From the NCBI RefSeq assembly GCF_004217315.1, contig NZ_SGWR01000001.1, positions 434,001 to 498,000 on the forward strand: 64,000 nt of DNA, given 5' to 3'. The DNA is from Corticibacter populi (lineage in GTDB: Bacteria > Pseudomonadota > Gammaproteobacteria > Burkholderiales > Burkholderiaceae_C). Below are positions 27,754-40,991 of this stretch, piece by piece; positions within the stretch are counted from its first letter, which is position 1, and each line of letters opens with the position of its first letter. A program made the position numbers and the translations under genes. Below the pieces are notes generated by a model, which was not told the DNA's origin, searched no databases, and saw only the letters and a list, made by a program, of their open reading frames with translations.

Positions 27754-28467
27754 ATGAGCAAACAGGAATTCGCCCCCGGACTGGAAATCCAGGACATCGC
27801 CGCGCCGTTGTCGCTGCGTGATTTTCGCCTCATCGCCTTCGACATGGACTCCACGCTGGTGACCACCGAATGCGTGGACGAGATCGCCGACATGGTGGGC
27901 AAGAAGCGCGAAGTCGCCGAGATCACCGAGGCGGCCATGCAGGGCATCATCACCGACTTCAAGGAAAGCCTGCGTCGGCGCGTGGCGCTGCTCAAGGGCG
28001 TCACGGTCGAGCAATTGCAGCGCGTTTACACCGAACGCGTGCGCCTCTCGGACGGAGCGCGCGAACTGGTGCAGGCCTGCCATGCTGCGGGCCTCAAGAC
28101 CCTGCTGGTTTCGGGCGGCTTCACCTTCTTCACCGAGCGCGTGCGCGCCGAGCTGGAGCTGGACTTCGTGCGCTCGAACCTGCTCGATATCCGCGACGGC
28201 GTGCTCACCGGCGGCCTGCAGGGCCAGAGCTGGGGCGACATCTGCGACGGCCAGGAAAAGCGCCGTGCCGTGCTGGAGCTGGCCTCGCTGATGGACATCG
28301 AGCCAGCCCAGGCCATCGCCGTCGGTGACGGTGCCAACGACCTGCCAATGATGCAGGCTGTGGGCCTCTCGGTGGCCTACCACGCCAAGCCGCGCGTGCG
28401 CGCCCAGGCCAAGGTGGCCATCAACAGCGGCGGACTCGATCGCCTGCTGGAAGTGCTGCGGCCCTGA
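27754..28467 (+). CDS. serB: Phosphoserine phosphatase
   Basis: The 237-residue HAD-superfamily enzyme catalyses the last step of serine synthesis. The nucleophile motif FDMDSTLV is at residues 29-36, with ECVDEIADMVG following, VSGGFTFFTERV near 117 and AVGDGANDLPMMQAVGLSVAYHAKP near 188. It is the shorter SerB form without an N-terminal ACT domain. A terminator follows at 28548-28572. Confidence 0.95.
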   Translation: MSKQEFAPGLEIQDIAAPLSLRDFRLIAFDMDSTLVTTECVDEIADMVGKKREVAEITEAAMQGIITDFKESLRRRVALLKGVTVEQLQRVYTERVRLSDGARELVQACHAAGLKTLLVSGGFTFFTERVRAELELDFVRSNLLDIRDGVLTGGLQGQSWGDICDGQEKRRAVLELASLMDIEPAQAIAVGDGANDLPMMQAVGLSVAYHAKPRVRAQAKVAINSGGLDRLLEVLRP

Positions 28468-28547
28468 AGCGGGCCACGCGTTCTCCTCGTCGGGCCCAAG
28501 TGCCCCGAACGAAAAGGCTTTGAGCAGGTTCTAAGCCCCTGCTGACG

Positions 28548-28572
28548 CGCATCCCTGCAGGGATGCGTTTTT
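28548..28572 (+). terminator. Intrinsic terminator after serB
   Basis: CGCATCCC and GGGATGCG form a perfect 8-base stem around TGCA, followed by TTTTT. Confidence 0.85.
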
Positions 28573-28701
28573 CTTCGTGCGTCCAGAAAGCCGGTCGGCA
28601 AGGCTGGTTGCCAGTCAGCGAGCGCCGATGGGCATGTTGGTCATCGCCATCGGGCATTGCTGCCATCTCCATTTACAAGAGAGATACGAAAAATTGACGA
28701 C
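28573..28701. other. Upstream region of the hemophore locus
   Basis: From here to the receptor start at 28827 the DNA becomes AT-richer. It holds a TTGACG hexamer at 28694, the FNR-type box at 28702 and an inverted repeat at 28743-28773. A repeat-family arm (CTTTGAGCAGGTTCTA) lies just upstream at about 28518-28533. No small gene is evident. Confidence 0.45.
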
Positions 28702-28715
28702 TTGATAATTATCAA
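28702..28715. promoter_or_regulatory. Perfect FNR/DNR-type box before the hemophore receptor gene
   Basis: TTGAT-AATT-ATCAA matches the FNR/ANR/DNR consensus TTGATN4ATCAA at every fixed position and lies within the 16-base palindrome CTTGATAATTATCAAG. The site is 112 bases before the receptor ATG. If the -10 is the AATATA near 28758-28763, the box centre falls about 61 bases before the transcript start, a usual activator position. The upstream gene serB ends at a terminator, so the only sensible target is the receptor gene. A Crp/Fnr regulator is encoded at 39423-40187. Confidence 0.75.
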
Positions 28716-28742
28716 GAGCATTTCCTGATCCTGCAAAGAAGA

Positions 28743-28773
28743 ATCGATCCCGTTCTCAATATAGAGGATCGAT
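28743..28773. promoter_or_regulatory. Spaced inverted repeat in the receptor leader
   Basis: ATCGATCC at 28743 and GGATCGAT at 28766 are perfect inverted repeats separated by 15 bases that include the AATATA hexamer. This could be a repressor operator across the -10 or a leader hairpin. Function inferred only. Confidence 0.45.
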
Positions 28774-28826
28774 GCGAGGCTGTTGGCTGGCCCCATCGCA
28801 AGAGGTCGTTCCAATCAGGAGAGGAA

Positions 28827-31800
28827 ATGAACAAGAGAGCTTACCCGGCCCTGCAAGGCATCTCGGTGGCGGTGGCACTGGCGTGCTGGAGCATGGCCCA
28901 TGCGCAAGGGCAGGAACAGGAAGGGGAGACGCCCGCGCAGCAGAATGGCTGGCAGCGCGATGCCGAACAGGCGCTGCCGGAGGTTGTCGTGACCGGCGAG
29001 CGCACCCGCGACGAAAAAGGCCAGGACGACGTGTATGACAAAAACGTTACCACCGTCTATCAGGAGCGCGAACAACTGCAGCGCTTCCAGGCCACCAACC
29101 CTGGTGACGCGTTCAAGGGCATGAACGGCGTCTACAGCATGGACACGCGCGGCAGTCAATCGATTACGCCCAACATCCGCGGCCTATCCGGCGAAGGGCG
29201 CGTGCCGCTGACCATCGATGGCACCGAACAATCCACCAACATCTGGCTGCACTTCTTTGGCGCGGGTAACCGCAGCTACGCCGACCCGGCGATGTTCCGC
29301 AGCATCGAGGTGGAAAAGGGCCCGTCCCTGAGCCGCGGCATCAAAAGCGGTGTTGGAGGTTCAGTGAACATCCGCACCATCGAACCCGGCGACATCATTC
29401 CCGAAGGCAAGAACTTCGGCATCGAATTGAAGGCCGACACCTCCGGCAACAGCAGCAAACCCCGATTTGATGCCGCCTCGGTCTACGGCAAGGATTACCG
29501 CGATATTCCCGGCGCGGTGCGCACCGGTACCAGTGTCGCGGTTCCCTCCGGGACGCCGCGGGAGAAGGGCGGCGGGGAGAACTTCAATTTCGACAGCCAC
29601 TCCGGCATGCTCACCATTGCTGGACGCAATGAAATGACGGACTTCCTCGCCTCGTACAGCAAGCGCACCCAGGGCAACTACTACGCGGGAAAAAGGAATG
29701 CCGGAAGGTATGCAGGCCATGATTATCTCGATCAAACCAGCACGGATTCCTTCACCCCGAACATGACCAAGCTGTACGGCGCAGGAGATGAAGTCTTCAA
29801 CACCGCCAGCGAAACCAGAAGCACGCTGCTGAAGAACAACTGGTATTTTCCGGATGGGCAGAAAATCGGCCTGTCATTCATGCGAAATGACATGGATTTT
29901 GGAGAAACCACTCCGGGTAATTCGGTACTGCTCATGTCCTGGCGGGAATCCTTTGAACACCAGTTTCCGGATGCGGATTTTTCCAACACCCAGCGATTCG
30001 TGTTTGAAAGACCGCATTCGGAGATGAAAGTGGATCGCTACAAGCTGGACTATGAGGTCAAGCCGGAAGATTCGAAATGGTTGAATCTGGAGGCCAGCTT
30101 GTGGCATACCAAGACCCGCGGCACACGCTATCAGACCGGAATTTCACCTTATGTCATCGACGCGGATGACGCTACCGCGAATGCCCTGGCGTTGTATGAC
30201 ACCCTCAGCAGTTCCTATCCTGACTTCGACTGGAGCTCCTGGCTTCCGGATCATGACGGCACCATCCTGGCCCGTGGGCGGCAATGGACCAGCCATGACC
30301 GCACCGGCCTGGACTTGAGCAACCAGATCAAGCTGAACGAAAAAATGCAATTGATGCTGGGTGTCAATTACCAGCGCGAAAAACTGGATGACCGGGTCGA
30401 GCAAACCAAACTGAATTTGAGCAGTGGGGGCCTGGGCATTGACGGCAACACCATGCACGCCAGCACCGATTTCTTTGGCCCGCGCTCTGGCGAACGCAAG
30501 GAATATTCCGCCACGATGAATCTGAGCTACCAGCCCACCCCGTGGCTGACGCTGACTGCTGGCACCCGATATATGCGATATACCGGCAAGGACACGGGTT
30601 TGGCGAAGATGGCAGGTAGTCGAGTGAAGACCGGCATGCAATTGGAATATGGAGAGATTCTGACCACGGAAGAAGCAGAGAAATACAGAGACCTTTCAGC
30701 CACCGACACAGCAAATAGCCAGGCCGCCGCCCCATATATTAATGATTATGTTTTCAATGGCGTCGTGACGCCCGAGATTGAAACTTGGCTGGCACACAAG
30801 CAAGTGTATAACGCTTTTCTGGATGGGAGGCAGGTAAGTTATAGATCGATTAATGATGGCTCTGGAATTAACTATCTATACTGGATATATGATCCCGTCC
30901 TTGTTCCGGTCATAAACGGCAAGCCAGATTCGTCTCAGAACCCATTTGCCAACGGTACGCTGAATGCCGCAGAGACTGTGGAGAACACCCAGGGCTTGGA
31001 TGAGGTGGCCCGGTATGCCACTGGAATCGGTGAAGATGTTTATGAAACCCTGAGTTCAGGACAAGCCTGGGAAAACTCCGCAGAACAGTCGGGCCATGCC
31101 TGGAGTCCGGTCTTGAGCGCGACTGCGCGGATTGGCCAATTTGGTACCGGTTTTGCGCGTTATGCGCAGACCACGCGTTTCCCGAGCATTCATGAGCTGA
31201 CCACCAGCTCGGTGGTGGACGGCGCCGGCACCCTCGGAACTTTGGCGGTGAATGGCGCCAGCAAGCCCGAGCGCAGCACGAATATTGAAATTGGCTATGC
31301 CCATAATCTGGCGCAATTCTTCCCCGGGCTGGCGCTGGCGGATGCGCGCATCAGCTATTACAACACCCGGATCAAGAACTTCATCGATCGCACCGCATAC
31401 GCGGACACCATCCAGTTTGACAAGAAGAAAACCAGCGGCATCGAATTGCAATCGCGTTTTGATGCGGGGCGTTTTTTTGGCGGCCTGGGCGGCACCTACC
31501 GCTTGAAGCAGGAAATGTGCGACAAGGATTTCGCCAGCAGCATGGACCCTTATTACAACCGCATTCCCACCTGCATGACGGGTGGTTTCCCTGGTACCTA
31601 TAGCGGCAGCAGCTTGCAGCCCAAATACTCCATCAATATGGAGTTGGGCACGCGCTTGCTGGACAGGCGCCTGGAGGTGGGTTGGCGCGGCACCTATCAC
31701 GCCGGGGCGGAAAACAGGCAATTGGACCGCCTGCTGGCCCAGAGCACCGCGACACCCGGAACCGCCACTTTGCCACGGGATGTGTGGTTCCGTGGCGGCG

Positions 31801-31988
31801 TGGATGCGTTGTATTGGCAGTCGGTCGTGCTGCATGATTTGTACGCGCAGTTCCAAGTCAACAAAAGTGTACTGCTCAACCTGAACATCATCAATCTGAC
31901 CGATCAGTATTACATGGATCCCATGTCCAAAAATGTCATGCCAGGACCGGGACGTACCATTACGGCGGGCATGACCCTCAGGTTCTAG
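28827..31988 (+). CDS. TonB-dependent receptor, probable hemophore/haem receptor
   Basis: This 1053-residue outer-membrane receptor has a signal peptide to about residue 26, a TonB box (EVVVTGER) near 51, a plug domain (TPNIRGLSGEGRVPLTIDG near 112; IEVEKGPSLSRGIKSGVGGSVNI near 161) and a 22-strand barrel ending in MTLRF. The TRFPSIHEL and NGASKPERSTNIEIGY segments near 780-815 occupy the place of the FRAP/NPNL region of haem receptors. Its location before a hemophilin-like gene and a Slam gene suggests it takes haem from that secreted protein, as HphR does for HphA in Acinetobacter; this is inferred. Coding DNA is much poorer in GC than neighbours, for example 22 of 60 in 30841-30900. An AGGAG-type site precedes the ATG. 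Confidence 0.85.
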   Translation: MNKRAYPALQGISVAVALACWSMAHAQGQEQEGETPAQQNGWQRDAEQALPEVVVTGERTRDEKGQDDVYDKNVTTVYQEREQLQRFQATNPGDAFKGMNGVYSMDTRGSQSITPNIRGLSGEGRVPLTIDGTEQSTNIWLHFFGAGNRSYADPAMFRSIEVEKGPSLSRGIKSGVGGSVNIRTIEPGDIIPEGKNFGIELKADTSGNSSKPRFDAASVYGKDYRDIPGAVRTGTSVAVPSGTPREKGGGENFNFDSHSGMLTIAGRNEMTDFLASYSKRTQGNYYAGKRNAGRYAGHDYLDQTSTDSFTPNMTKLYGAGDEVFNTASETRSTLLKNNWYFPDGQKIGLSFMRNDMDFGETTPGNSVLLMSWRESFEHQFPDADFSNTQRFVFERPHSEMKVDRYKLDYEVKPEDSKWLNLEASLWHTKTRGTRYQTGISPYVIDADDATANALALYDTLSSSYPDFDWSSWLPDHDGTILARGRQWTSHDRTGLDLSNQIKLNEKMQLMLGVNYQREKLDDRVEQTKLNLSSGGLGIDGNTMHASTDFFGPRSGERKEYSATMNLSYQPTPWLTLTAGTRYMRYTGKDTGLAKMAGSRVKTGMQLEYGEILTTEEAEKYRDLSATDTANSQAAAPYINDYVFNGVVTPEIETWLAHKQVYNAFLDGRQVSYRSINDGSGINYLYWIYDPVLVPVINGKPDSSQNPFANGTLNAAETVENTQGLDEVARYATGIGEDVYETLSSGQAWENSAEQSGHAWSPVLSATARIGQFGTGFARYAQTTRFPSIHELTTSSVVDGAGTLGTLAVNGASKPERSTNIEIGYAHNLAQFFPGLALADARISYYNTRIKNFIDRTAYADTIQFDKKKTSGIELQSRFDAGRFFGGLGGTYRLKQEMCDKDFASSMDPYYNRIPTCMTGGFPGTYSGSSLQPKYSINMELGTRLLDRRLEVGWRGTYHAGAENRQLDRLLAQSTATPGTATLPRDVWFRGGVDALYWQSVVLHDLYAQFQVNKSVLLNLNIINLTDQYYMDPMSKNVMPGPGRTITAGMTLRF

Positions 31989-31996
31989 GTTTTTTG

Positions 31997-32023
31997 CTTG
32001 TTTTTTTGAAAAACAAGTTTTTT
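31997..32023 (+). terminator. AT-rich hairpin with T run between receptor and hemophilin genes
   Basis: CTTGTTTTT and AAAAACAAG form a perfect 9-base stem with loop TTG, followed by six T. It begins 9 bases after the receptor stop and ends 35 bases before the hemophilin-like start. It may act as a terminator, attenuator or 3-prime end stabiliser. Confidence 0.7.
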
Positions 32024-32058
32024 CGATGTGTTTCAACCCAATCTTGACAGGAGTCGAT

Positions 32059-32952
32059 ATGAAAAAACGCATGATCGCTTTGACCGCGGCAGCTTTGCTG
32101 GGTAGCGGCGCGGCAATGGCAGCATCGGGCGGCAGCTCCAATACAGCCAATGTGGCGGTAGGCAATTCCAACCACATTATGTTTGGAGGTGGAAATTCCG
32201 GCTTGAAATTCGAAAACAGTAGCTTGGGTTTCATCGATATTGCGGGCGGGCCGGTCAATGGCTCCAATATCGCCATCGATGCCCGTGGCAATGGCACCAT
32301 CATGACGGCGGCGGACTTGGGCCTGCTTTTCCCGTTGAATATTGCCCAGGTGTGGAGGGCCTCGGCATCCAATGGCACGGCCAAGTTCATGATCAACAGC
32401 GTGCGCCAGATCAATACTTTTGCGCTGGCGCCGCAGTTTGGCGGCCTGGTGATCGGGCAGGTGGCTGATTCCGCTGGCAAGCCGCTGGCCGTGGGCAGCG
32501 GTGTGTATTTTGGCGAGTGGGCGCCCCGTGCGGCAGGCACGCCGCCGAGCGACAGCACCAACCTGAACATGAGCAGCGGCAGCCGCACCGTTTGGTATGT
32601 GGGCGACAACCCTGTGACGGCGACCCCCAACCTGAGCAATGTCACCTACAACGTGATCGGCATCCGCCAGACCGGCGAGGGTGCCAACCTGCCGGCGACG
32701 CCGAATCTGTACAACGGTGTGCTGACTGCGAACTATGTGGCCGGCGGCAGCAGCAACACGTTGGCGGGCAATCTCAGCCGGACGGGCGACACGACCGTTG
32801 CCATCAATGCCACGATCAACAGCACCGGTCAGTTCACTGGGGATGGAGTCCAAGGCCGTTTCTACAACAATGCCGCAGCCCTGGCCGGCATTTACACGGG
32901 TGGCGGAACCGCTGCCACCAACATCGCTTTCGGTGGCAGTCGCTCGAACTGA
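32059..32952 (+). CDS. Hemophilin-like, Slam-dependent secreted haem-binding protein
   Basis: This 297-residue exported protein has a signal peptide (MKKRMIALTAAALLGSGAAMA) with a type I cleavage site and no lipobox Cys. A Gly/Asn/Ser-rich N-terminal domain (about 22-200) is followed by a C-terminal small beta-barrel (about 215-297: YNGVLTANYV, GRFYNNAAALAGIY, IAFGGSRSN). That barrel is the mark of Slam substrates (TbpB, HpuA and hemophilin types). Lack of a lipid anchor favours a secreted hemophilin such as HphA of Acinetobacter or Hpl of Haemophilus. Haem binding is inferred from the gene set; ligand residues are not visible. An AGGAG site lies before the ATG. Hairpins flank the gene on both sides. 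Confidence 0.72.
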   Translation: MKKRMIALTAAALLGSGAAMAASGGSSNTANVAVGNSNHIMFGGGNSGLKFENSSLGFIDIAGGPVNGSNIAIDARGNGTIMTAADLGLLFPLNIAQVWRASASNGTAKFMINSVRQINTFALAPQFGGLVIGQVADSAGKPLAVGSGVYFGEWAPRAAGTPPSDSTNLNMSSGSRTVWYVGDNPVTATPNLSNVTYNVIGIRQTGEGANLPATPNLYNGVLTANYVAGGSSNTLAGNLSRTGDTTVAINATINSTGQFTGDGVQGRFYNNAAALAGIYTGGGTAATNIAFGGSRSN

Positions 32953-32983
32953 ATGCCATTGATTACGTGACGTGAGTCTATGT

Positions 32984-33016
32984 GGAGGCCGGTTCCGCCG
33001 GTCTCCATTTTATTTT
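32984..33016 (+). terminator. Terminator-like hairpin between hemophilin and Slam genes
   Basis: GGAGGCCGG and CCGGTCTCC form a 9-base stem (one G-T pair) with loop TTCCG, followed by ATTTTATTTT. It starts 32 bases after the hemophilin-like stop and could reduce transcription into Slam. Confidence 0.7.
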
Positions 33017-33094
33017 GGGCCCGCCATTCGCGTGGATGCCGGTGCGCGCCACTCGGATATGCCGCATGGCGGGGCCGATTTCATGGAGCTCTCT

Positions 33095-34585
33095 ATGCCA
33101 CAGGGTTTGCTTGCGCTTTGTCTGTCTCTGATGCTTGTTCTGATTTCCGGGCATGCTCCGGTATGGGCCGACGAGGACGACACCCGATACCTGCTGCAGG
33201 AACAGACGCGCCGCGCCGCCGAACGTGCGGCCGGGCCGCAAGGCGAACTGTTCGCGCCGCCCGGCTCGCTGGTGGTGGATGGCCGGGTGCAGGCGGTGCA
33301 GTCACGCCAGGAGGAACTGGAGCCGGCGATCTACATCGCCATCAATTCCGGCCAGTGGGAGCGGCTGCCGGAGTTCCTCAGCCGCTATCGCCTGCTGCAT
33401 GGCCACCGCCCGGCGCTGGTGGCCATGGCCGAGGCCCTGCTGGCCCGCCACCAGGGCGACTACGCCGCGGCGCTGCGCCGCATGCAGGCCGCGCATGCGG
33501 CCGACCCGGCGGATGCGCGTATCAACCTGGAACTGGCGCGCCTGCGCTTCGAGGACAACCAGGACGGCGCGGCCGGCGAGGGTTTTGCCCGCGCAATGGC
33601 GGCGGGCCTGCCCGGGCAGGTGCAGGCCATGGTGCGGCAGTACCAGCAGGCGCTGGCCGAGCGGGCGCGCTGGCACGGCAGTCTGGCGCTGGGCTGGGGT
33701 TACAACAACAACATCAATCAGGGCAGTGGCGATTACGCATGTTTTTTGGAGCTGGGAGGCATGTGCTTCTTCGAACGACGCATGCCGCAGCCCATCCATT
33801 CGAGCCTGCTGAACTACGAACTGGCGCTGCAGCGGCGCTGGAACCTGGGCGGCAACCACAACCTGCAATTGCGGCCGGTGAGCTATGGCAGCCATTACAG
33901 CCGCAAGGACGGGACGGGCAGCTCGCCGATCAGCGATCATGGCAGCAGGACCTCCATCCTGTACGGCGGCTACCAGTGGCTGGATGCGCGCACCACCGCC
34001 AGCGTGACGCCATATCTGGAGCATTTCCACCGCAACGGGCACACCGAGTACGTGGCGCGCGGCATGCAGTTGGAGTGGCAGCGTATGGTGGGCAGCGGCC
34101 TGCGCCTTGGCACCAGCCTGGATGCCAAGCGCTACGCACATACCGGGCGGGGCCTGCTGGTCAGCGGCAGCGATTATTCGCAGTACCAATGGGGCGTCTC
34201 GGCCGTCTACGTGCCGCAGCCGAACACGGTGCTCAACGTGGGCGCAGACGTGACGCGCAAGAAGTACGCGGTGCCGCAGGCCAGTAGCAGGGACTGGGCC
34301 TTTCGTGGCGGTATCTACCACCAGTTCGCCGGTACGGCCGGATTGTTCGTGAATGTGATGGGCGTTTTCCGTTTCGGCCGCAATGATGCCTACGATGGTT
34401 TTCTGGGGGCGCAGCGCCGCGATCGCCAGCAGGTCTACATTCTCGGCATCGGCGCCAACGCCTGGAAGCTGGCGGGCATGACGCCGGAGCTGCGGCTGCG
34501 CCACAGCGCCAACCGCAGCAATGTGAGCTGGGCCTACGGCTTTCGCCAGACGGAACTGGGCGTGATGCTGCGGCGCAATTTCTGA
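33095..34585 (+). CDS. Slam-family surface protein assembly modulator (TPR plus DUF560)
   Basis: This 496-residue outer-membrane protein has a signal peptide ending near APVWA (about residue 24), an N-terminal TPR domain (about 65-185: ALVAMAEALLARHQGDYAAALRRM, DARINLELARLRFEDNQDGAAG) and a C-terminal barrel of the DUF560/Slam type from about 192 (WHGSLALGWGYNNNINQG) to the terminal Phe. Slams move surface lipoproteins or hemophilins across the outer membrane. The upstream hemophilin-like protein is the expected client. ATG 33095 has GGAG six bases upstream; ATG 33083 is in frame. The gene is GC-rich, unlike the receptor gene. The DUF1971 gene begins 12 bases after its stop. Confidence 0.85.
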   Translation: MPQGLLALCLSLMLVLISGHAPVWADEDDTRYLLQEQTRRAAERAAGPQGELFAPPGSLVVDGRVQAVQSRQEELEPAIYIAINSGQWERLPEFLSRYRLLHGHRPALVAMAEALLARHQGDYAAALRRMQAAHAADPADARINLELARLRFEDNQDGAAGEGFARAMAAGLPGQVQAMVRQYQQALAERARWHGSLALGWGYNNNINQGSGDYACFLELGGMCFFERRMPQPIHSSLLNYELALQRRWNLGGNHNLQLRPVSYGSHYSRKDGTGSSPISDHGSRTSILYGGYQWLDARTTASVTPYLEHFHRNGHTEYVARGMQLEWQRMVGSGLRLGTSLDAKRYAHTGRGLLVSGSDYSQYQWGVSAVYVPQPNTVLNVGADVTRKKYAVPQASSRDWAFRGGIYHQFAGTAGLFVNVMGVFRFGRNDAYDGFLGAQRRDRQQVYILGIGANAWKLAGMTPELRLRHSANRSNVSWAYGFRQTELGVMLRRNF

Positions 34586-34597
34586 AGGAGATGGGCG

Positions 34598-34933
34598 ATG
34601 ACTTCAAGTGTTGCGGGCTTGCCTGCCGGGATCAGGGCTTACAAGCGCACGCCGGAGTTCACGCAGGAGACGGTGCCCGCCGGGCTGCTGCGTGATCACA
34701 CCACGAAGGCGGGCACGTGGGCACTGATTCATGTGCTGGAAGGCGCGTTGCTGTACGTGGTGCCTTCCGAGGGTTTTCAGCAGGTGCTCGCTCCCGGCAA
34801 GCCGCCTGGAGTGGTCAGGCCACAGCAATTGCACAGCGTGAAGCCGCTGGGGCCGGTGCGGTTCTACGTGGAGTTCCACGCGGCCCCGCCGGATGAGGCG
34901 GAAGGCAGTCCGAGTTCGGGGTTGGCGGGGTGA
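34598..34933 (+). CDS. DUF1971 (YeaR-like) cupin-fold protein
   Basis: This 111-residue protein matches DUF1971, found in E. coli YeaR and at the N terminus of some TehB proteins: LPAGIRAYKRTPEFTQETVP near residue 7, GLLRDHTTKAGTWALIHVLEG near 27 and PLGPVRFYVEFH near 85. YeaR is induced by nitrate and nitric oxide in E. coli; its role is unclear. A GAAGGAG site overlaps the Slam stop region, so it is probably co-transcribed with Slam. It also fits the nitrogen-oxide theme of the next genes. Confidence 0.85.
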   Translation: MTSSVAGLPAGIRAYKRTPEFTQETVPAGLLRDHTTKAGTWALIHVLEGALLYVVPSEGFQQVLAPGKPPGVVRPQQLHSVKPLGPVRFYVEFHAAPPDEAEGSPSSGLAG

Positions 34934-35110
34934 TGTATGTGGTTTGGCGTTGTGGCTTTTTTCGGCCCAGTGGTCCAGTGTCTCCCGGTGTCTGTTCGTA
35001 CGGGTGCGGGTCGAGCCATGGATGATTGCCGGTCCCGGTAGGTCTGGGTCTTCATGCCTGAGATGGTTGCGGTGGCTGCAGTGGATGTTTTTTCGGAAAG
35101 GAGTGTTGCC

Positions 35111-36127
35111 ATGGGTATTTCGGATTTCTCCAGGGAGCGTCGGGATTGGCTGGTGGGCGCTGGTGCTTCGGCTTTGGCGCTGGCGTTGCCTGCAGGGGCG
35201 CAAACCCAGCCGGTGCGGGAACGACTGGTGCTGGCAGGCCCGCTGGCCAATGTCTCGTTCCCGTTGATGCGACTGGCCGAGAGTGGCGCGCTGGCGGCGC
35301 TGGCCGACAAGGTGGAATTCCGCGCCTGGACCAACCCGGACCAGTTGCGCGCCCTGGCGGTTGATGGCGGAGCGGATTTCGTCGCCGCACCCAGCAATGT
35401 GGCAGCCAACCTCTATAACCGGGGCGTGCCGCTCAAGCTGCTGGATGTGTCGGTCTGGGGCATCCTATGGCTGGTTTCGCGCAACAGCCAGTGGCAGACC
35501 CTGGCGGATTTCAAGGGACAGGAGATCACGCTGCCGTTTCGCGCCGACATGCCCGACATCGTGTTCCAGTTGCTGGCGCGCCGCCAGGGGCTGGATCCGC
35601 AGAAGGACTTTCGCATCCGCTATGTGGCCTCGCCCATGGATGCCATGCAGCTGTTGGTATCTCGGCGCACGGACCATGCCTTGCTGGCCGAACCGGCGGT
35701 GTCGATGGCGCTGCGCAAGACGCGCTCGTTCCCCGTTTCGGTGATCGCGCCGGAACTCTTCCGCAGTGTGGATCTGCAACGCGAGTGGGGGCGGGTTTTC
35801 GGCCGTGCGCCACGGATTCCGCAGGCCGGCATTGCCGCGGTGGGTGCCGTGCGCGATGATGCCGTGCTGCTTGCGCAGATGCGGCAGGCGCTGGCCGAGG
35901 CGCATGCCTGGTGTTGGGCCAACCCTGCCGAGTGCGGGCAGATGGCGGCACGCTACGCCGGCATGCTGCAGCCGGAGGCGGTGGCCGACTCCCTGCAGGC
36001 CGTGCCGGCGTTCTATCGCACGGCAGCGCAGGCACGCGAGGAACTGGAGTTTTTCTATGGGCTGCTGCTGGAGAATCAGCCCGCCCTGGTGGGCGGCAGG
36101 CTGCCGGATGCGGGGTTCTATGGGTGA
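35111..36127 (+). CDS. NMT1/SsuA-like ABC transporter substrate-binding protein
   Basis: This 338-residue periplasmic binding protein starts MGISDFSRERRDWLVGAGAS, which contains a Tat-type motif (RRDWL) before a hydrophobic segment. The fold follows NMT1/THI5-like proteins (nitrate, sulfonate, taurine type): RLVLAGPLANVSFPLMRLAESG, GADFVAAPSNVAANLYNRG and DFRIRYVASPMDAMQLLVSRRTDHALLAEP. The ligand is unknown. An AAAGGAG site precedes ATG 35111. Permease and ATPase genes follow. Confidence 0.85.
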   Translation: MGISDFSRERRDWLVGAGASALALALPAGAQTQPVRERLVLAGPLANVSFPLMRLAESGALAALADKVEFRAWTNPDQLRALAVDGGADFVAAPSNVAANLYNRGVPLKLLDVSVWGILWLVSRNSQWQTLADFKGQEITLPFRADMPDIVFQLLARRQGLDPQKDFRIRYVASPMDAMQLLVSRRTDHALLAEPAVSMALRKTRSFPVSVIAPELFRSVDLQREWGRVFGRAPRIPQAGIAAVGAVRDDAVLLAQMRQALAEAHAWCWANPAECGQMAARYAGMLQPEAVADSLQAVPAFYRTAAQAREELEFFYGLLLENQPALVGGRLPDAGFYG

Positions 36128-36196
36128 GTGTTTGCCCTGCCGCAACAACCGGGCGAGAAGGTGCCCACCAGTGCCTTGTGCCGCCGTGATACTCGA

Positions 36197-37048
36197 ATGA
36201 TGTCGACAGGCCCCGTTGGCGGCTTGGTGCTTATCGTGGTGCTTATGTTTCTTTCATCGTTTTTGCGCGGTGCGCGGCGCGCCGTGGCTGCCTGCGCCGT
36301 TTATCTCTGGAGCGGCTGGGGAGCGGTGGCCAGCGTGCTGCTGTTCTGCGCGCTTTGGGAGTGGGGGGCGCAGTGGTATGGGGATTTGCTGCTGCCAGGA
36401 CCGCTGGCGACGCTGGCGCAACTGCGCCAGATGCTGGCGGACGGCATGGCCGCACCGCAGCTGCTGATCTCGGCCCGGCGTACCTTTGCCGGGCTGGCGC
36501 TGGCGGTGCTGGCCGGCAGCGTGCTGGGCATGCTGGCGGGCCGCTCGATCACCGCCGCGATGGCCTCGCGCCCGCTGGTGACGCTGCTGCTGGGCATGCC
36601 GCCGATTGCCTGGCTGGTGCTGGCGATGTTGTGGTTCGGCATGGGCGATGCCACGCCGGTGTTCACGGTGTTCATTGCCTGTCTGCCCATCGTCTTTGCC
36701 GGTGCGATGCAGGGCACGCGCACGCTCGATCACCAGCTGCGCGACGTCGCGCATGTGCTGCGCCTGCCATGGTGGATGGGCCTGACCGATGTCTATCTGC
36801 CGCATGTGCTGTCGTATCTGTTCCCGGCCTGGATCACGGCGTTGGGGACATCCTGGAAAGTCGTGGTGATGGCCGAGCTGTTGACCACGGTCGATGGTGT
36901 GGGCGCGGCGCTGGCCGTCTCTCGCGCCCAGCTGGACACGGCCTCGTCGATGGCCTGGATCGTCGCCGTGCTGGTGCTGCTGCTGGCGGTGGAATACCTG
37001 GTGCTGGAGCCGTTCAAGCGCAAGGCCGAGCGCTGGCGGCAGGCCTGA
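36197..37048 (+). CDS. ABC transporter permease (SsuC/NrtB-like)
   Basis: This 283-residue membrane protein of the BPD_transp_1 class has six hydrophobic segments and the cytoplasmic loop HQLRDVAHVLRLPWWMGLTDVYLPHVLSYLFPAW near residue 180 that contacts the ATPase. WLVLAMLWFGMGDATPVFTVF is typical of sulfonate/nitrate permeases. Start is uncertain: ATG 36197 or 36200 versus GTG 36128. It works with the neighbouring binding protein and ATPase. Confidence 0.88.
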   Translation: MMSTGPVGGLVLIVVLMFLSSFLRGARRAVAACAVYLWSGWGAVASVLLFCALWEWGAQWYGDLLLPGPLATLAQLRQMLADGMAAPQLLISARRTFAGLALAVLAGSVLGMLAGRSITAAMASRPLVTLLLGMPPIAWLVLAMLWFGMGDATPVFTVFIACLPIVFAGAMQGTRTLDHQLRDVAHVLRLPWWMGLTDVYLPHVLSYLFPAWITALGTSWKVVVMAELLTTVDGVGAALAVSRAQLDTASSMAWIVAVLVLLLAVEYLVLEPFKRKAERWRQA

Positions 37049-37187
37049 CCATTCGATGGCGGCGATGGAACGGTGCGTCAGCCGGCAACAGAATGCAACG
37101 CAACAGGACGGCAAGGCGGCAAGGCAAGCAAAAAGAAATGCAACGGATCCACAAGAACAGCATGATGCGACACGATGAAGGCTTCCC

Positions 37188-38066
37188 ATGGAATTGCATA
37201 TCCGGCACCTGACGCACAGCTTTGCACTGACGGAGGTGCTCAGCGACATCAACCTCGACCTGCATGCCGGCGAGACGCTGGCGCTGGTCGGGCCATCCGG
37301 GTGCGGCAAGAGCACCTTGCTGCACATCGTGGCGGGGTTGCTGCGGCCTTCGGAAGGGACCTTGGAGTCATCCTTTCGGGGGATTGGCTGCATGTTCCAG
37401 CAACCGCGCCTGATGCCGTGGAAGAACGTGGTGGACAACATCGCCCTGGGCCTCAAGGGCCTGGGCATACCCGCGGGCAGCCGCAGGCGCCAGGGTGCTG
37501 CGCTGGCGTTGCGGATGGGGCTGCTGGAGCGGGATATGGACAAATTCCCGTATGAGCTCTCGGGCGGTATGCAAAGCCGGGTGGCTCTCGCGCGGGCGCT
37601 GGCGACCAGGCCCGACCTGCTACTGCTCGACGAGCCGTTCGCCGCGCTCGATGTGGGCCTGCGCCATGAACTGTATGGCGTCCTGCGCGAGCAGGTGCGG
37701 GGCACGGGTGCCGCAGTGCTGATGATCACGCACGACCTGATGGAGGCGGTCCGGCTGGCCGATCGGCTGCTGCTCATGGCGCCGCATCCCGGCCGGGTGT
37801 TGCGCGAATTCATGGTGCCGCGCCTGCAGGAGCGGCGCAGCGATGACTGGATCTACGGGCAGACGGGCCGGCTGATGCGGATCCGCGAGGTGCGCGAGTG
37901 CTTCGGGCTGCCGCTGCAGCGCGAGGAGGGCGATCATGAGGCCGATCCGACGGCCGCCGATGATGGTGGTGTGCCCGGTGGCATGGACGACGGTGTGCGC
38001 GCGCTGACAGGCGCATCGGCGAACTGCGCTGCGCCACATGGCCATCGCGGAGGGTGCGTGGCATGA
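37188..38066 (+). CDS. ABC transporter ATPase (SsuB/NrtD-like)
   Basis: This 292-residue ATPase has Walker A GPSGCGKS at residues 35-42, CMFQQPRLMPWKNV (Q-loop) near 69, signature LSGGMQSRVALARAL near 125 and Walker B DLLLLDEPFAALD near 145. An atypical tail of about 40 residues follows the ABC core. A 139-base gap separates it from the permease. Its stop overlaps the NnrS-family start (ATGA), tying the transporter to that gene. Confidence 0.92.
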   Translation: MELHIRHLTHSFALTEVLSDINLDLHAGETLALVGPSGCGKSTLLHIVAGLLRPSEGTLESSFRGIGCMFQQPRLMPWKNVVDNIALGLKGLGIPAGSRRRQGAALALRMGLLERDMDKFPYELSGGMQSRVALARALATRPDLLLLDEPFAALDVGLRHELYGVLREQVRGTGAAVLMITHDLMEAVRLADRLLLMAPHPGRVLREFMVPRLQERRSDDWIYGQTGRLMRIREVRECFGLPLQREEGDHEADPTAADDGGVPGGMDDGVRALTGASANCAAPHGHRGGCVA

Positions 38067-39364
38067 AGCGATGGACCAGAGGCTTGATGAAGCGGTGGAC
38101 CACCCATCCGGTGTTCCTGTGCGGCTTTCGGCCGTTCTTCTTCTTCAGCGGCATCGCCGCCTGCGCCCTGATGGGCTGGTGGCTGCTGTCATTGTCGGGA
38201 GTGCCTGCGGTGGCGGCATGGCAGCCTTCGGGGGGCCCCATGCTCTGGCATGCGTGCGAGCTGATCCTGGGTTTTGGCATGGCGGCGGTGGCCGGCTTCC
38301 TGCTGACGGCAGTGCCGGAATTCACCGGCAGCGAGCCGCAGCCGGCATCCCGTCTGCTTTGTGTCGCGGTGCTCTGGCTGCTGGCCCGCCTGGCCTGGTT
38401 GCCGGCGGCCTGGCTGCCATGGGGAGTCGGGATCGGCCTGCTGGCGACCCTGAACCTGGGATTCACGGCTGGCTTGCTGGCACTGCTGCTGCCGGCACTG
38501 TGGCGCGACCGTACCCGCCGCCATCTCAGCTTTGGCTGGGCGCTGCTGGCCATGCTGGCGGTGGAGGCCGGCTTTTTCCTGGCGCTGTACCGGCACGGTG
38601 ATCCCATGGCCTGGCTGCTGCTGGCGATCGGTCTGATGATGGTGCTGATCGTGATTGCCGGCAGCCGCATTTCGATGAACGTGGTCAACCGGCTGGTCGA
38701 GGCAGGCAGACCGGGGCTGGCGGACCATGAAACCGTTGGTTATCTGGCGCGTCCGCCGCGGCGCAATTTCGCCGTGTTCTGCATCTGCCTTTTCAGCGGG
38801 GTGGAGTTCCTCAAGGGGCACGACCTGGTGACGGGCTGGCTGGCGCTGGCGGCGGCGGCGGCCATGTTCAACCTGCTCAATGACTGGCATGTGGGCCGCG
38901 CGCTGCTGTATCGATGGGCGCTGATCCTGTATGCGGGCTACTGGCTGGTGGCGCTGGGCTATGCCGGTATTGGCCTGGCCATGCTGGGCGCACCCTGGAC
39001 GCCATCGTCCGGGCGCCATCTGCTGCTGGTCGGTGCCATGGGCCTGTCCATCTTCACGGTCATGAACATTGCCGGGCGCATTCATGCCGGCCTGTGGCTG
39101 GATGACCGCCGCTGGGTTCCGCTGGCGGCGGCGATGCTGGTACTGGCGGCATTGTTGCGCTGGCTGGCCGGCTGGTTCGCCATGGCGCAGTGGAGCGCCA
39201 TGCTGCTGTTGGTGGCCGGCCTGTTGTGGATGGCCGCATTTGCGCTTTACCTGTGTTTCAGTGCGGCGATCCTGCTGCAGCCCCGCACCGACGGACAGCA
39301 GGGCTGCGCGGAGCCGCTGACGGATGCGCAAGGTCCGCAGGCGATTGCGCACAGGCATCGATGA
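38063..39364 (+). CDS. nnrS: NnrS family haem-copper membrane protein
   Basis: This 433-residue polytopic protein (about 12 helices) resembles NnrS, which protects against nitric oxide stress and is usually controlled by FNR/DNR-type regulators. Signatures are VFLCGFRPFFFFSGIAACAL near residue 17, WHACELILGFGMAAVAGFLLTAVPEFTG near 62 and IFTVMNIAGRIHAGL near 330. The usual WHxHE reads WHACE, so one His is Cys (65). ATG 38063 has GGAGG upstream and overlaps the ATPase stop; GTG 38054 is less likely. Confidence 0.85.
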   Translation: MKRWTRGLMKRWTTHPVFLCGFRPFFFFSGIAACALMGWWLLSLSGVPAVAAWQPSGGPMLWHACELILGFGMAAVAGFLLTAVPEFTGSEPQPASRLLCVAVLWLLARLAWLPAAWLPWGVGIGLLATLNLGFTAGLLALLLPALWRDRTRRHLSFGWALLAMLAVEAGFFLALYRHGDPMAWLLLAIGLMMVLIVIAGSRISMNVVNRLVEAGRPGLADHETVGYLARPPRRNFAVFCICLFSGVEFLKGHDLVTGWLALAAAAAMFNLLNDWHVGRALLYRWALILYAGYWLVALGYAGIGLAMLGAPWTPSSGRHLLLVGAMGLSIFTVMNIAGRIHAGLWLDDRRWVPLAAAMLVLAALLRWLAGWFAMAQWSAMLLLVAGLLWMAAFALYLCFSAAILLQPRTDGQQGCAEPLTDAQGPQAIAHRHR

Positions 39365-39422
39365 TGGCGGGCCTGCCGCCGGGCAGCGCGGTTACACGCA
39401 GCACGGCATCATGAGCAGGTTC

Positions 39423-40187
39423 TTACAGCAGGTTGCAGCATTCGAACAGGCTGCCGCTCAGGTTGCTGGCCGGGCGCGTGCGGATGAAATGCAGGTTCGG
39501 TGGCGGCAGACCCACTTCGTGGCAAAGCGCGACGGGGTCCAGCAGGACGAGTTCACGCTGCCGGCCGGTGCCGATCAGCCCGCGCCGCCTGAATTGCGCC
39601 AGATGCCGGGAGAATGTCTCGGGCGTGATGTTCAACTGGCGGGCAATCACGTTGTGGCTGTTGTTGAGCTGCAGCCAGGCAGTGCCCTGCTGGGCATGCA
39701 CATCCATCAGGTAGCTCACGAGGCGCTGCGCCGAGTTGGTGATGGTGAGCAGGTCGATGCGGTTGACCGCCTGGAGGATGCGGCTGGAGAGAATCTCGAC
39801 CAGCGAGTAGGCAAAGTCTGCGGATTGCCGTGTCAGTGACAGCAGCAGTTCCCGTGGCAGGCGCTGCAACCTGCAGTCCTGCTCGGCGACAGCCGAGAGC
39901 GGGTAGTGGCAGGGCTGTGCATACATCACGGTTTCGGCCACCAGTGCGCCGGCTTCGAGCGAGCGGAACACCTTGCTCTCGCCCATCAGGCTGGGGCTGT
40001 AGAGCGTGAGGGTGCCCGACTCCAGCCAATAGAAGTAGCGGGCCTCGTCACCTGCGATGAACAGGTGTTGCTGGGCATACAGCTGCACCGGTGTGGCGCT
40101 GTGGGCCAGCGCCGTCAGCAACTGTTGGCTGGCCTTGGAGAAGGTGGGCGATCGGGAGAGCGCCACCGTCAGTGATGTGTTGCTCAT
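39423..40187 (-). CDS. Crp/Fnr family regulator, Dnr-like
   Basis: This 254-residue protein has an N-terminal cyclic-nucleotide-type beta-barrel (about 20-135), a long dimer helix (LVEILSSRILQAVNRIDLLTI) and a C-terminal winged helix with HNVIARQLNITPETFSRHLAQFRRRGLI near residue 192. The E-xx-SR pattern (ETFSR) in the recognition helix is that of FNR/DNR proteins reading TTGAT half-sites. No N-terminal cysteine cluster is present, so it is unlike oxygen-sensing FNR and more like nitric oxide-sensing Dnr. It faces nnrS convergently. The open frame extends to 40217; ATG 40187 is preferred. Confidence 0.85.
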   Translation of the reverse strand: MSNTSLTVALSRSPTFSKASQQLLTALAHSATPVQLYAQQHLFIAGDEARYFYWLESGTLTLYSPSLMGESKVFRSLEAGALVAETVMYAQPCHYPLSAVAEQDCRLQRLPRELLLSLTRQSADFAYSLVEILSSRILQAVNRIDLLTITNSAQRLVSYLMDVHAQQGTAWLQLNNSHNVIARQLNITPETFSRHLAQFRRRGLIGTGRQRELVLLDPVALCHEVGLPPPNLHFIRTRPASNLSGSLFECCNLL

Positions 40188-40268
40188 GGCTTGCCGTGTG
40201 CGGGAAAAGCCGGTCATGACCGGCCAGAAGATGTGTGCCCGGAATCATAGCCCTGCTGCCGACATTCT

Positions 40269-40289
40269 GTAAATGAGAAACATTATTTA
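40269..40289. promoter_or_regulatory. Fur-like site upstream of the Crp/Fnr gene
   Basis: GTAAATGAGAAACATTATTT resembles the Fur consensus, keeping AATGA, AA and CATTAT. It is in the gap between the PCuAC gene end and the Crp/Fnr start, about 85 bases upstream of the latter. The match is imperfect, so this is a candidate only. Confidence 0.45.
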
Positions 40290-40419
40290 TTTGACCGCTG
40301 GGTGAAGGCGTGTGCGCTTACCCGTTCGGCCGAACTCGATCGTTGAGCCGACCGGCGCCAGCAACGTCTTCGTGCCCCGGCCGCCTGGGCCTGGCGACCG
40401 GGGCGGGGCTTCGGCGTCG

Positions 40420-40938
40420 TCAGTGGTGGCTGTGTCCGTGCGTTGCGGCGCCATCCCTGGGTTCCTCCACCCACACTTCGACCGGCACGCTGCCGGCATG
40501 CTCGAACTGGATGGTCAGCGGGAACCGGTCGCCGGCCTTCAAGGGCTGCTCGAGTTCGAGCAGCATGACGTGCAGCTTGTTGCCCTCGCCGAGCTTGACG
40601 TGGCCGCCAGCGGGCACGTCCACTCCGTCGACCTTGAACATGCGCATCACGCCACCTTGCATGTCCATGTCATGGATTTCCGTGTGCTTGGCGACCTCGG
40701 ACTGCACGCCGATGATGCGATCACCCGTGCTGCCGGCGTTGTTCACGCCGAACCAGGCCGAGCCATTGAGCTGGCCGGGACGGCTTGGACGTGCGTAGGG
40801 GTGCGTGATTTCCAGGTCGCCGGACTTGAATTCATGGGCGTGGCCGAGTGTGGCGGCCATCATGGCGCCGCACAGCAGCAGGCAATGGCTGACGCGGGTG
40901 ATGCGGGCGATGCGGGGAAGACAGATGCGTTGAGTCAT
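40420..40938 (-). CDS. Periplasmic copper chaperone PCu(A)C
   Basis: This 172-residue exported protein has a signal peptide ending near ATLGHA (about residue 34) and the PCuAC/DUF461 domain. It shows the copper site H(M)x10Mx21HxM: IHDMDMQGGVMRM near residue 90 and NKLHVMLLEL near 122. A His-rich C terminus (GHSHH) adds metal ligands. PCuAC proteins deliver Cu(I) to cytochrome oxidase or nitrous oxide reductase assembly. An AAGGAA site precedes ATG 40938. It follows the copper receptor gene by 53 bases, so the two probably form an operon. Confidence 0.92.
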   Translation of the reverse strand: MTQRICLPRIARITRVSHCLLLCGAMMAATLGHAHEFKSGDLEITHPYARPSRPGQLNGSAWFGVNNAGSTGDRIIGVQSEVAKHTEIHDMDMQGGVMRMFKVDGVDVPAGGHVKLGEGNKLHVMLLELEQPLKAGDRFPLTIQFEHAGSVPVEVWVEEPRDGAATHGHSHH

Positions 40939-40991
40939 GGTGTATTCCTTTTCTGTGCAAGAAGTGTGAGGGAGATGTCGGGAGTGTGGTT

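Follow-up and report, generated by a model that had tools for sequence, protein, structure and literature searches.

The window analysed here, a 64-kb stretch (64,000 nucleotides) of the Corticibacter populi genome, carries on one strand the genes for a 1053-residue TonB-dependent receptor, an exported protein without a lipobox and a Slam protein that joins tetratricopeptide repeats (TPR) to a DUF560/SlipAM barrel. A sequence-only reading of the stretch had singled out this trio as a haem-scavenging set, and the open reading frames (ORFs) and Pfam profiles bear out the arrangement. Identification of the trio as a Slam-dependent hemophilin system is well supported by sequence profiles and a structural model. 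It is best explained, with a probability of roughly 0.7, as one arm of a regulon that also includes a NitT/TauT-type ATP-binding cassette (ABC) importer and the membrane protein NnrS, governed by a DNR-like Crp-family regulator through a single palindromic operator. For the trio's membership in such a Crp/NnrS-linked uptake regulon the support is good in relatives and partial in the window.

In the proposed mechanism, Sec would export the small protein and its own Slam would then carry it across the outer membrane. Once outside the cell, the hemophilin would pick up haem, or a closely haem-like tetrapyrrole, and hand it to the dedicated TonB receptor. The DNR-like Crp protein would switch the trio, the ABC importer and NnrS through the shared palindrome. 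The trio appears to occupy the slot that a stand-alone haem-type TonB receptor holds in other NnrS-ABC modules, and hemophilin or receptor would therefore probably meet the same uptake need, most likely under nitric oxide or low oxygen.

Structure prediction provides good support for a hemophilin fold in the 297-residue protein. An AlphaFold2 (AF2) model built on 15 homologues (predicted local distance difference test score, pLDDT, 77; predicted template-modelling score, pTM, 0.80) has the N-terminal handle and C-terminal eight-stranded barrel of hemophilins in Foldseek comparison. Ranks 1-8 of that search are all hemophilins (TMt 0.50-0.71), from A. baumannii, S. maltophilia, H. parainfluenzae, H. 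haemolyticus and V. harveyi, with HpuA next; the best match is 7re4 (E 8.9e-11, TMt 0.70). By sequence, the protein passes NCBIfam NF041636, 'Slam-dependent surface lipoprotein', marginally (80.7 bits, cut-off 80), has no Pfam match at E 0.001, and matches the PDB hemophilins 8gm3 over residues 149-295 and 7re4 over 70-295, while a profile from the 15 homologues matches PDB hemophilins over the C-terminal half only. Its N-terminus, MKKRMIALTAAALLGSGAAMA, resembles a Sec signal peptide with no Cys lipobox, as judged by eye.

The partners of this protein are identified from sequence profiles. TIGR01785 and TIGR01786 are the best families for the receptor, both under cut-off (TIGR01785 245 bits, cut-off 317), and its solved relatives in the PDB include HasR and PhuR. 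Both Slam domains score over cut-off, PF24575 (TPR_Slam) at 62 bits against 35 and PF04575 (SlipAM) at 102 bits against 22. The longest Slam ORF, 32972-34585 on the + strand, encodes 537 aa counted from GTG 32972; translation probably begins instead at ATG 33095, because the hemophilin stop is followed by a terminator-like hairpin and, by eye, relatives show an ATG at the corresponding position. In sum, the structure comparison and profile searches recovered the hemophilin fold and the Slam that the sequence-only reading had predicted; the trio identities and a haem-type receptor stand, and haem itself is the probable ligand of a protein with one conserved His. Features of the window and the junction RNA discussed below are collected in the table.

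Table. Features of the Corticibacter populi window, with the junction RNA of gammaproteobacterial relatives in the last line.
Feature	Position	Strand	Support or remark
Candidate operator palindrome TTGATAATTATCAA	28702..28715		CRP/FNR-type 14-mer, AATT core, 111 bp 5' of receptor start codon
TonB-dependent receptor, haem/hemoglobin type, 1053 aa	28827..31988	+	PF07715, PF00593, TIGR01785, PDB HasR/PhuR
Secreted hemophilin-fold protein (predicted), 297 aa	32059..32952	+	NF041636, AF2 model, Foldseek; longest ORF from 32026
Intrinsic-terminator-like hairpin at hemophilin-Slam junction, 12 pairs, T-rich tail	32982..33008	+
Slam / type 11 secretion outer-membrane protein, TPR + SlipAM barrel	33095..34585	+	PF24575, PF04575
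DUF1971 (YeaR / TehB N-domain-like), 111 aa, accessory	34598..34933	+	PF09313; PDB 3m70 TehB, 3bb6 YeaR
Periplasmic substrate-binding protein (SBP), NitT/TauT type	35111..36127	+	Longest ORF from 35054; TIGR01728 below cut-off; PDB 3hn0 E 2.9e-17
ABC permease	36128..37048	+	PF00528
ABC ATPase	37188..38066	+	PF00005
NnrS membrane protein	38054..39364	+	PF05940 266 bits, cut-off 28
Crp/Fnr-family regulator, DNR-like, ExxSR recognition helix	39423..40217	-	PF13545, PF00027; PDB DNR 3dkw E 3.7e-17
Junction RNA	L012:4449-4576; also L010, L011, L013-L018, L020-L022

Comparison with relatives places the trio beside a recurrent set of neighbours. Fourteen loci came from one scan of genome contigs, with hemophilin identities of 46-70%, and five from further stretches (L025 repeats the place of L017 and is not counted again); 18 loci including the window show Slam, and L019 does not. 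The trio is found in Comamonas, Pseudomonas, Stutzerimonas, Halopseudomonas, Marinobacter, Neptuniibacter and Thiopseudomonas. In 12 of the 18 loci the NnrS module's SBP and permease genes stand next to the trio, in three arrangements: downstream on the same strand in the window and in three Comamonas records, where the trio is followed by the same ABC genes as in the window (L007-L009; the L007 contig stops within the permease); downstream and convergent in L010, L012, L013, L015, L021 and L022; and upstream and divergent in L018 and, across one intervening ORF, in L014. Only the Crp gene lies beside the trio in L016 and L024, L011 is cut short, and no NnrS module adjoins the trio in L017, L020 or L023. 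The usual partner of the trio is thus the SBP-permease-ATPase-NnrS module with a DNR-like Crp gene, not DUF1971. Two of these loci have additional neighbours. Directly 5' of the trio of Pseudomonas abyssi (L015, 721-5643) lie MoaA, the anaerobic ribonucleotide reductase NrdD and an NrdG-like gene (the last by eye), and in Marinobacter a second, divergent receptor-SLP-Slam set adjoins the first (L025:2156-7453, - strand).

The association also holds at the level of whole genomes. Co-occurrence was counted in 298 genomes from the family of Stutzerimonas nitrititolerans (G154), by inference the Pseudomonadaceae, of which 10 carry the hemophilin (E <= 1e-30), 37 the permease (E <= 1e-70), 102 NosZ and 92 the cd1 family. 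Nine of the 10 hemophilin carriers have the permease, as against 28 of the 288 others (Fisher p 2.5e-8). The two genes are adjacent in seven genomes (G154, G155, G156, G157, G160, G268 and G309) and on separate contigs in G153 and G162; the remaining carrier, G346, has a hemophilin copy with an internal stop and no permease.

Modules without a trio suggest what the trio may replace. Apart from G153 and G162, 29 permease places lie away from hemophilin, and 16 of these NnrS modules were chosen by hand. A stand-alone haem-type receptor of one family lies near 13 of them, with only partial matches in L077 and L087 (376 and 390 aa); the three without a visible receptor (L072, L073, L076) are cut by contig ends. 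The same receptor, with TIGR01785 as best family below cut-off, is present in G153, G162 and G159 (L045, L035, L046). None was seen in the stretches examined at the 12 trio-linked modules, which are short for L007, L008 and L012. Because the receptor is found at modules without the trio and at none of these 12, trio and stand-alone receptor look interchangeable. An exact form of the palindrome occurs in L072 and L074 only among the 16 modules, and a Crp gene was seen in L074 only.

The palindrome provides the regulatory side of the argument. The sequence-only reading began the set at position 28702, exactly where TTGATAATTATCAA starts; this is the window's one perfect TTGATNNNNATCAA (FNR-type 14-mer). 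At up to two mismatches there are 20 such 14-mers against 10 expected, and looser matches mean little. With at most one mismatch, TTGAYNNNNRTCAA occurs in 13 of 18 receptor upstream regions (L019 included; L011, which has no receptor, excluded), as compared with a shuffle mean of 0.76 and a maximum of 4 in 500. All 13 sites share an AWWT core, which also marks the two-mismatch sites of L016 and L017; in L019, L020 and L023 there is no site 5' of the receptor. Of 12 loci, 8 also have the palindrome ahead of the SBP gene, and 7 of these sites are listed with the AWWT core (a core site is present in L014 as well); the four without it are the window and Comamonas, where the SBP gene follows Slam on the same strand. 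The palindrome precedes crp in 4 of 11 loci, and was not found 5' of Slam (0/18), NnrS (0/11) or the permease (0/12). Sites 5' of the hemophilin gene number 3 in 18, none with the AWWT core. Sites listed in the nir/nos stretches of G154, G155 and G160 have other cores, and none is listed for G157. With the cut loci L007, L011 and L019 excluded, all 13 loci in which a Crp gene adjoins the trio have the palindrome, versus 1 of the 3 in which none does (p 0.025).

Across the 19 carrier genomes the exact form, WTGAYAWWTRTCAW, occurs at 42 sites, and the reversed pattern at one. By our own tally, 28 of the 42 precede the trio receptor, the SBP or permease, crp, or a receptor beside them; in G159, for example, the second exact site is some 10 kb away from the trio, flanked by the genes for a haem-type receptor and the permease. 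Two more stand 5' of a haem-type receptor adjoining a gene that is NrdD-like by eye (L054:1798 and L058:1893, the L058 receptor match being split in two pieces). Exact sites are confined to module or trio genes in seven genomes (G154, G157 and G309, 3/3 each; G268, G153 and G159, 2/2 each; G151, 1/1), and three genomes have exactly three sites, one apiece at receptor, SBP and crp. The linked Crp proteins are closest to DNR (PDB 3dkw), with the ExxSR motif in all 11 relatives examined, and sites of the form TTGAY-N4-RTCAA are enriched at linked genes; none lies 5' of the window crp or SBP gene. An operator apparently common to the trio and nitric-oxide-linked genes in relatives hints that haem scavenging is tied to nitrogen-oxide metabolism.

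Several observations weigh against the favoured explanation. In the window the operator precedes the receptor only, with no site better than three mismatches at the SBP or crp gene, and the second exact site of the genome (C1:188109) lies away from the module. Twelve of the 42 exact sites are at other genes, including ANR-like, Aer-like and UspA-like genes (by eye) and a place near nosZ. Four of the 19 genomes, G149, G150 and G162 among them, have exact sites elsewhere and none at module or trio genes, the trio sites of G149 and G150 being one base off the exact form and hence uncounted; G161 and G346 have zero exact sites genome-wide. The linked Crp protein is a presumed binder of the candidate palindrome, and in Thiopseudomonas (G162) trio and module lie on separate contigs. 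The overlaps among the 298 genomes were tallied by hand, their statistics ignore kinship, and the sample includes seven previously found carriers (G153-G157, G160, G162). The NF041636 margin of the small protein is 0.7 bit; its 16-sequence alignment has no second conserved His, and the window protein has a single His. The window genome has no NosZ, no cd1-family match and only a weak, partial NarG match. Finally, Fur-like boxes (up to six mismatches) occur in 10 of the 18 receptor upstream regions versus 0.33 in shuffles, three of the 10 overlapping the palindrome, so that some loci may respond chiefly to iron.

Such boxes fit an ordinary iron-regulated hemophilin system like Acinetobacter HphA/HphR/HsmA, in which the vicinity of NnrS, ABC and Crp genes would reflect shared ancestry or chance and the palindrome would be a generic Anr/Fnr site or partly a Fur site. 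The exact sites at ANR-like and other unlinked genes and the divided Thiopseudomonas locus point the same way, as do the FecI- and FecR-like genes (best families, below cut-off) 5' of the L020 trio, where there is neither a palindrome nor an adjoining module, and a FecR-like gene 5' of the L019 trio, which lacks a palindrome and whose contig stops before Slam. This explanation is nevertheless unlikely, given the three adjacency arrangements of trio and module, the permease association among the 298 genomes, an AWWT core at all 13 receptor sites with other cores at the sites listed around nir/nos genes of G154, G155 and G160, and the three genomes with single sites at receptor, SBP and crp. Fur as sole regulator was rejected for the window, which has no Fur-like box better than seven mismatches, that one overlapping the palindrome.

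It is also improbable that the cargo is not haem but, for example, heme d1, a different metal tetrapyrrole or a metal complex, taken in via the linked NitT/TauT ABC system for nitrogen-oxide enzymes. The lack of a second conserved His is consistent with such a cargo, and the known cargo of the type 11 secretion system (T11SS) includes a 'cobalt receptor protein', CrpC, in the excerpts drawn on from PMC12282271. The permease tracks NosZ in the 298 genomes (34/37 versus 68/261, p 7e-15), and NosZ and the cd1 family each occur in 13 of 16 hemophilin-bearing genomes, one of the cd1-family matches being weak. Within the 298-genome sample the hemophilin's own association is weak, with kinship ignored, for both NosZ (7/10 carriers versus 95/288 non-carriers, p 0.02) and the cd1 family (6/10 versus 86/288, p 0.05). 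Against such a cargo, haem receptors are the nearest matches of these receptors, the top eight Foldseek ranks for the small protein are taken by hemophilins, and the genomes of the window and of Comamonas kerstersii are without a cd1-family or NosZ match. Fifteen of the 16 aligned homologues retain H39 as the His of an SNH or STH motif. HphA of Acinetobacter coordinates haem with H43 and H106, according to excerpts of PMC8560813; this two-axial-His trait, which is not established as family-defining, is absent from the window protein. Haem remains the favoured ligand, and with one conserved His a coordination other than that of HphA would be expected. For the ligand of the SBP, the AF2 model is poor (pLDDT 67; built from a start one codon past the ATG), and Foldseek gave the general fold only.

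A strict denitrification role was ruled out for the window, because its genome has no NosZ or cd1 family and only the weak, partial NarG match. Elsewhere, NarG (respiratory nitrate reductase) lies about 9-10 kb from the trio operator in two genomes (G157:C11:61144-64845 and G309:C1:1376284-1379985). The window system also differs from the two other Slam sets of its own genome in cargo and, so far as visible, in regulation: the hemophilin matches only itself in an own-genome search, and both other Slam genes stand behind FecR-like genes, STN-type receptors and long lipobox proteins (by eye; in L033 the FecR-like assignment is by family, below cut-off). After one of these Slam genes follows a haem oxygenase (PF01126, L033:11123-11776).

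The junction between hemophilin and Slam contains a further element. A terminator scan of the stretch that contains the window junction, weak in isolation, gave 13 terminator-like sites versus 9.3 in shuffles, and by eye 16 of 17 junctions have a terminator-type hairpin, those of L007-L009 with one mismatch and missed by the automatic scan. In 12 gammaproteobacterial loci one RNA model, trained on 10 of them (L021 and L022 lay outside training), fits the junction at 120-144 bits. It comprises three hairpins: the first, of 45 nt, is nearly invariant in sequence, the second shows compensatory changes, and the third is terminator-like. Among the 10 aligned junction RNAs, 11 pairs have changes on both sides versus 4.0 in shuffles, with 0 of 500 reaching 11, and pairing holds in 98% of alignment cells versus 33-47% when the alignment is slid. 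Under strict filters the RNA was found in 9 of the 298 genomes, at 124-144 bits and always at the hemophilin-Slam junction; these are the hemophilin carriers minus G346 (seven in training, G268 and G309 not), and the best score elsewhere is 30.8 bits. Thauera L019 fits the first 31 model positions, where its contig ends, and the window and Comamonas junctions retain the terminator-type hairpin only. Rfam at gathering score gave nothing in the window (28440-40400) or in the junctions of L010, L013 and L015-L017, and at E up to 5 a single chance-like match on the opposite strand of the L012 junction. A cobalamin riboswitch lies at L017:3715-3916 (- strand), between the trio and a gene that is NrdD-like by eye.

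Taken together, these parts could form a complete envelope-crossing route, with the hemophilin or a stand-alone haem-type receptor at the surface, a NitT/TauT-type SBP-ABC system that imports the same ligand, NnrS, and one dedicated Crp operator, and with the nearly invariant gammaproteobacterial junction hairpin tuning Slam, perhaps by sensing the ligand. As a joint claim this is tentative and on balance doubtful. No published description of such a route was found within an incomplete literature search.

The sequence-only reading had also listed the DUF1971 gene behind Slam with the set, and a functional role for it within the hemophilin system is very unlikely: its product matches PF09313 (83 bits), and it lies 12 bp after Slam with a good ribosome site and at the same place in Comamonas kerstersii (L009), but these are 2 of the 18 loci that show Slam (tblastn at E 1e-4 found none in the other 16, some of whose contigs stop soon after Slam), which rules it out as a core part. 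A tehB homologue is among the NsrR (nitrosative) targets in excerpts of PMC1274295, and DUF1971 therefore suits the NnrS side better. On the far side of the window Crp gene, 40423-43139 (- strand) encodes a PCu(A)C copper chaperone together with a TonB-dependent copper receptor, the latter scoring 758 bits with TIGR01778 (cut-off 472).

Several known systems share parts of this design. HasA/HasR likewise pairs a secreted hemophore with its own TonB receptor, but has an unrelated hemophore fold and type I secretion. The hemO cluster of Acinetobacter baumannii (HphA, HphR, HsmA; excerpts of PMC8560813) has in common a soluble hemophilin fold, its own TonB receptor and its own Slam. In contrast, the window locus has no haem oxygenase, which its genome places behind another Slam, and it is distinguished by one conserved His rather than the H43/H106 pair, by NnrS, ABC and Crp neighbours, and by the palindromic operator. 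Group 1 of the T11SS cargo, haemophilin-like and predominantly soluble (PMC12282271), Haemophilus Hpl (6om5) and Xenorhabdus HrpA/HrpB/HrpC (PMC8406197) share, in the portions of these sources used, a secreted single-barrel cargo of a DUF560 protein together with a haem receptor. The main texts of PMC12282271 and PMC8406197 lack the terms denitrification, nitric and nitrous; NnrS was not searched for there. The DNR, NnrR and NsrR regulons (excerpts of PMC1274295 and PMC2908626) share a CRP/FNR-type regulator and operator with nnrS as a target, and differ from the present case in its AWWT-core 14-mer, found in several genomes at this module only, and in its inclusion of a haem-type receptor and hemophilin. 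The word 'TonB' is absent from the texts of these two sources, and a search of PMC10964412 for haem-ligand terms found none.

In the parts of the literature consulted, hemophilins belong to host-associated bacteria taking haem from host haemoproteins. The same machinery in Comamonas, Stutzerimonas, Halopseudomonas, Marinobacter and Thiopseudomonas points to a possible role outside hosts. The tie between hemophilin and NnrS rests on adjacency, co-occurrence and a common operator, and through it NnrS, whose role in nitric-oxide biology is unsettled, and the ABC transporter would gain a testable partner in haem supply. The junction RNA is likewise a testable new cis-element.

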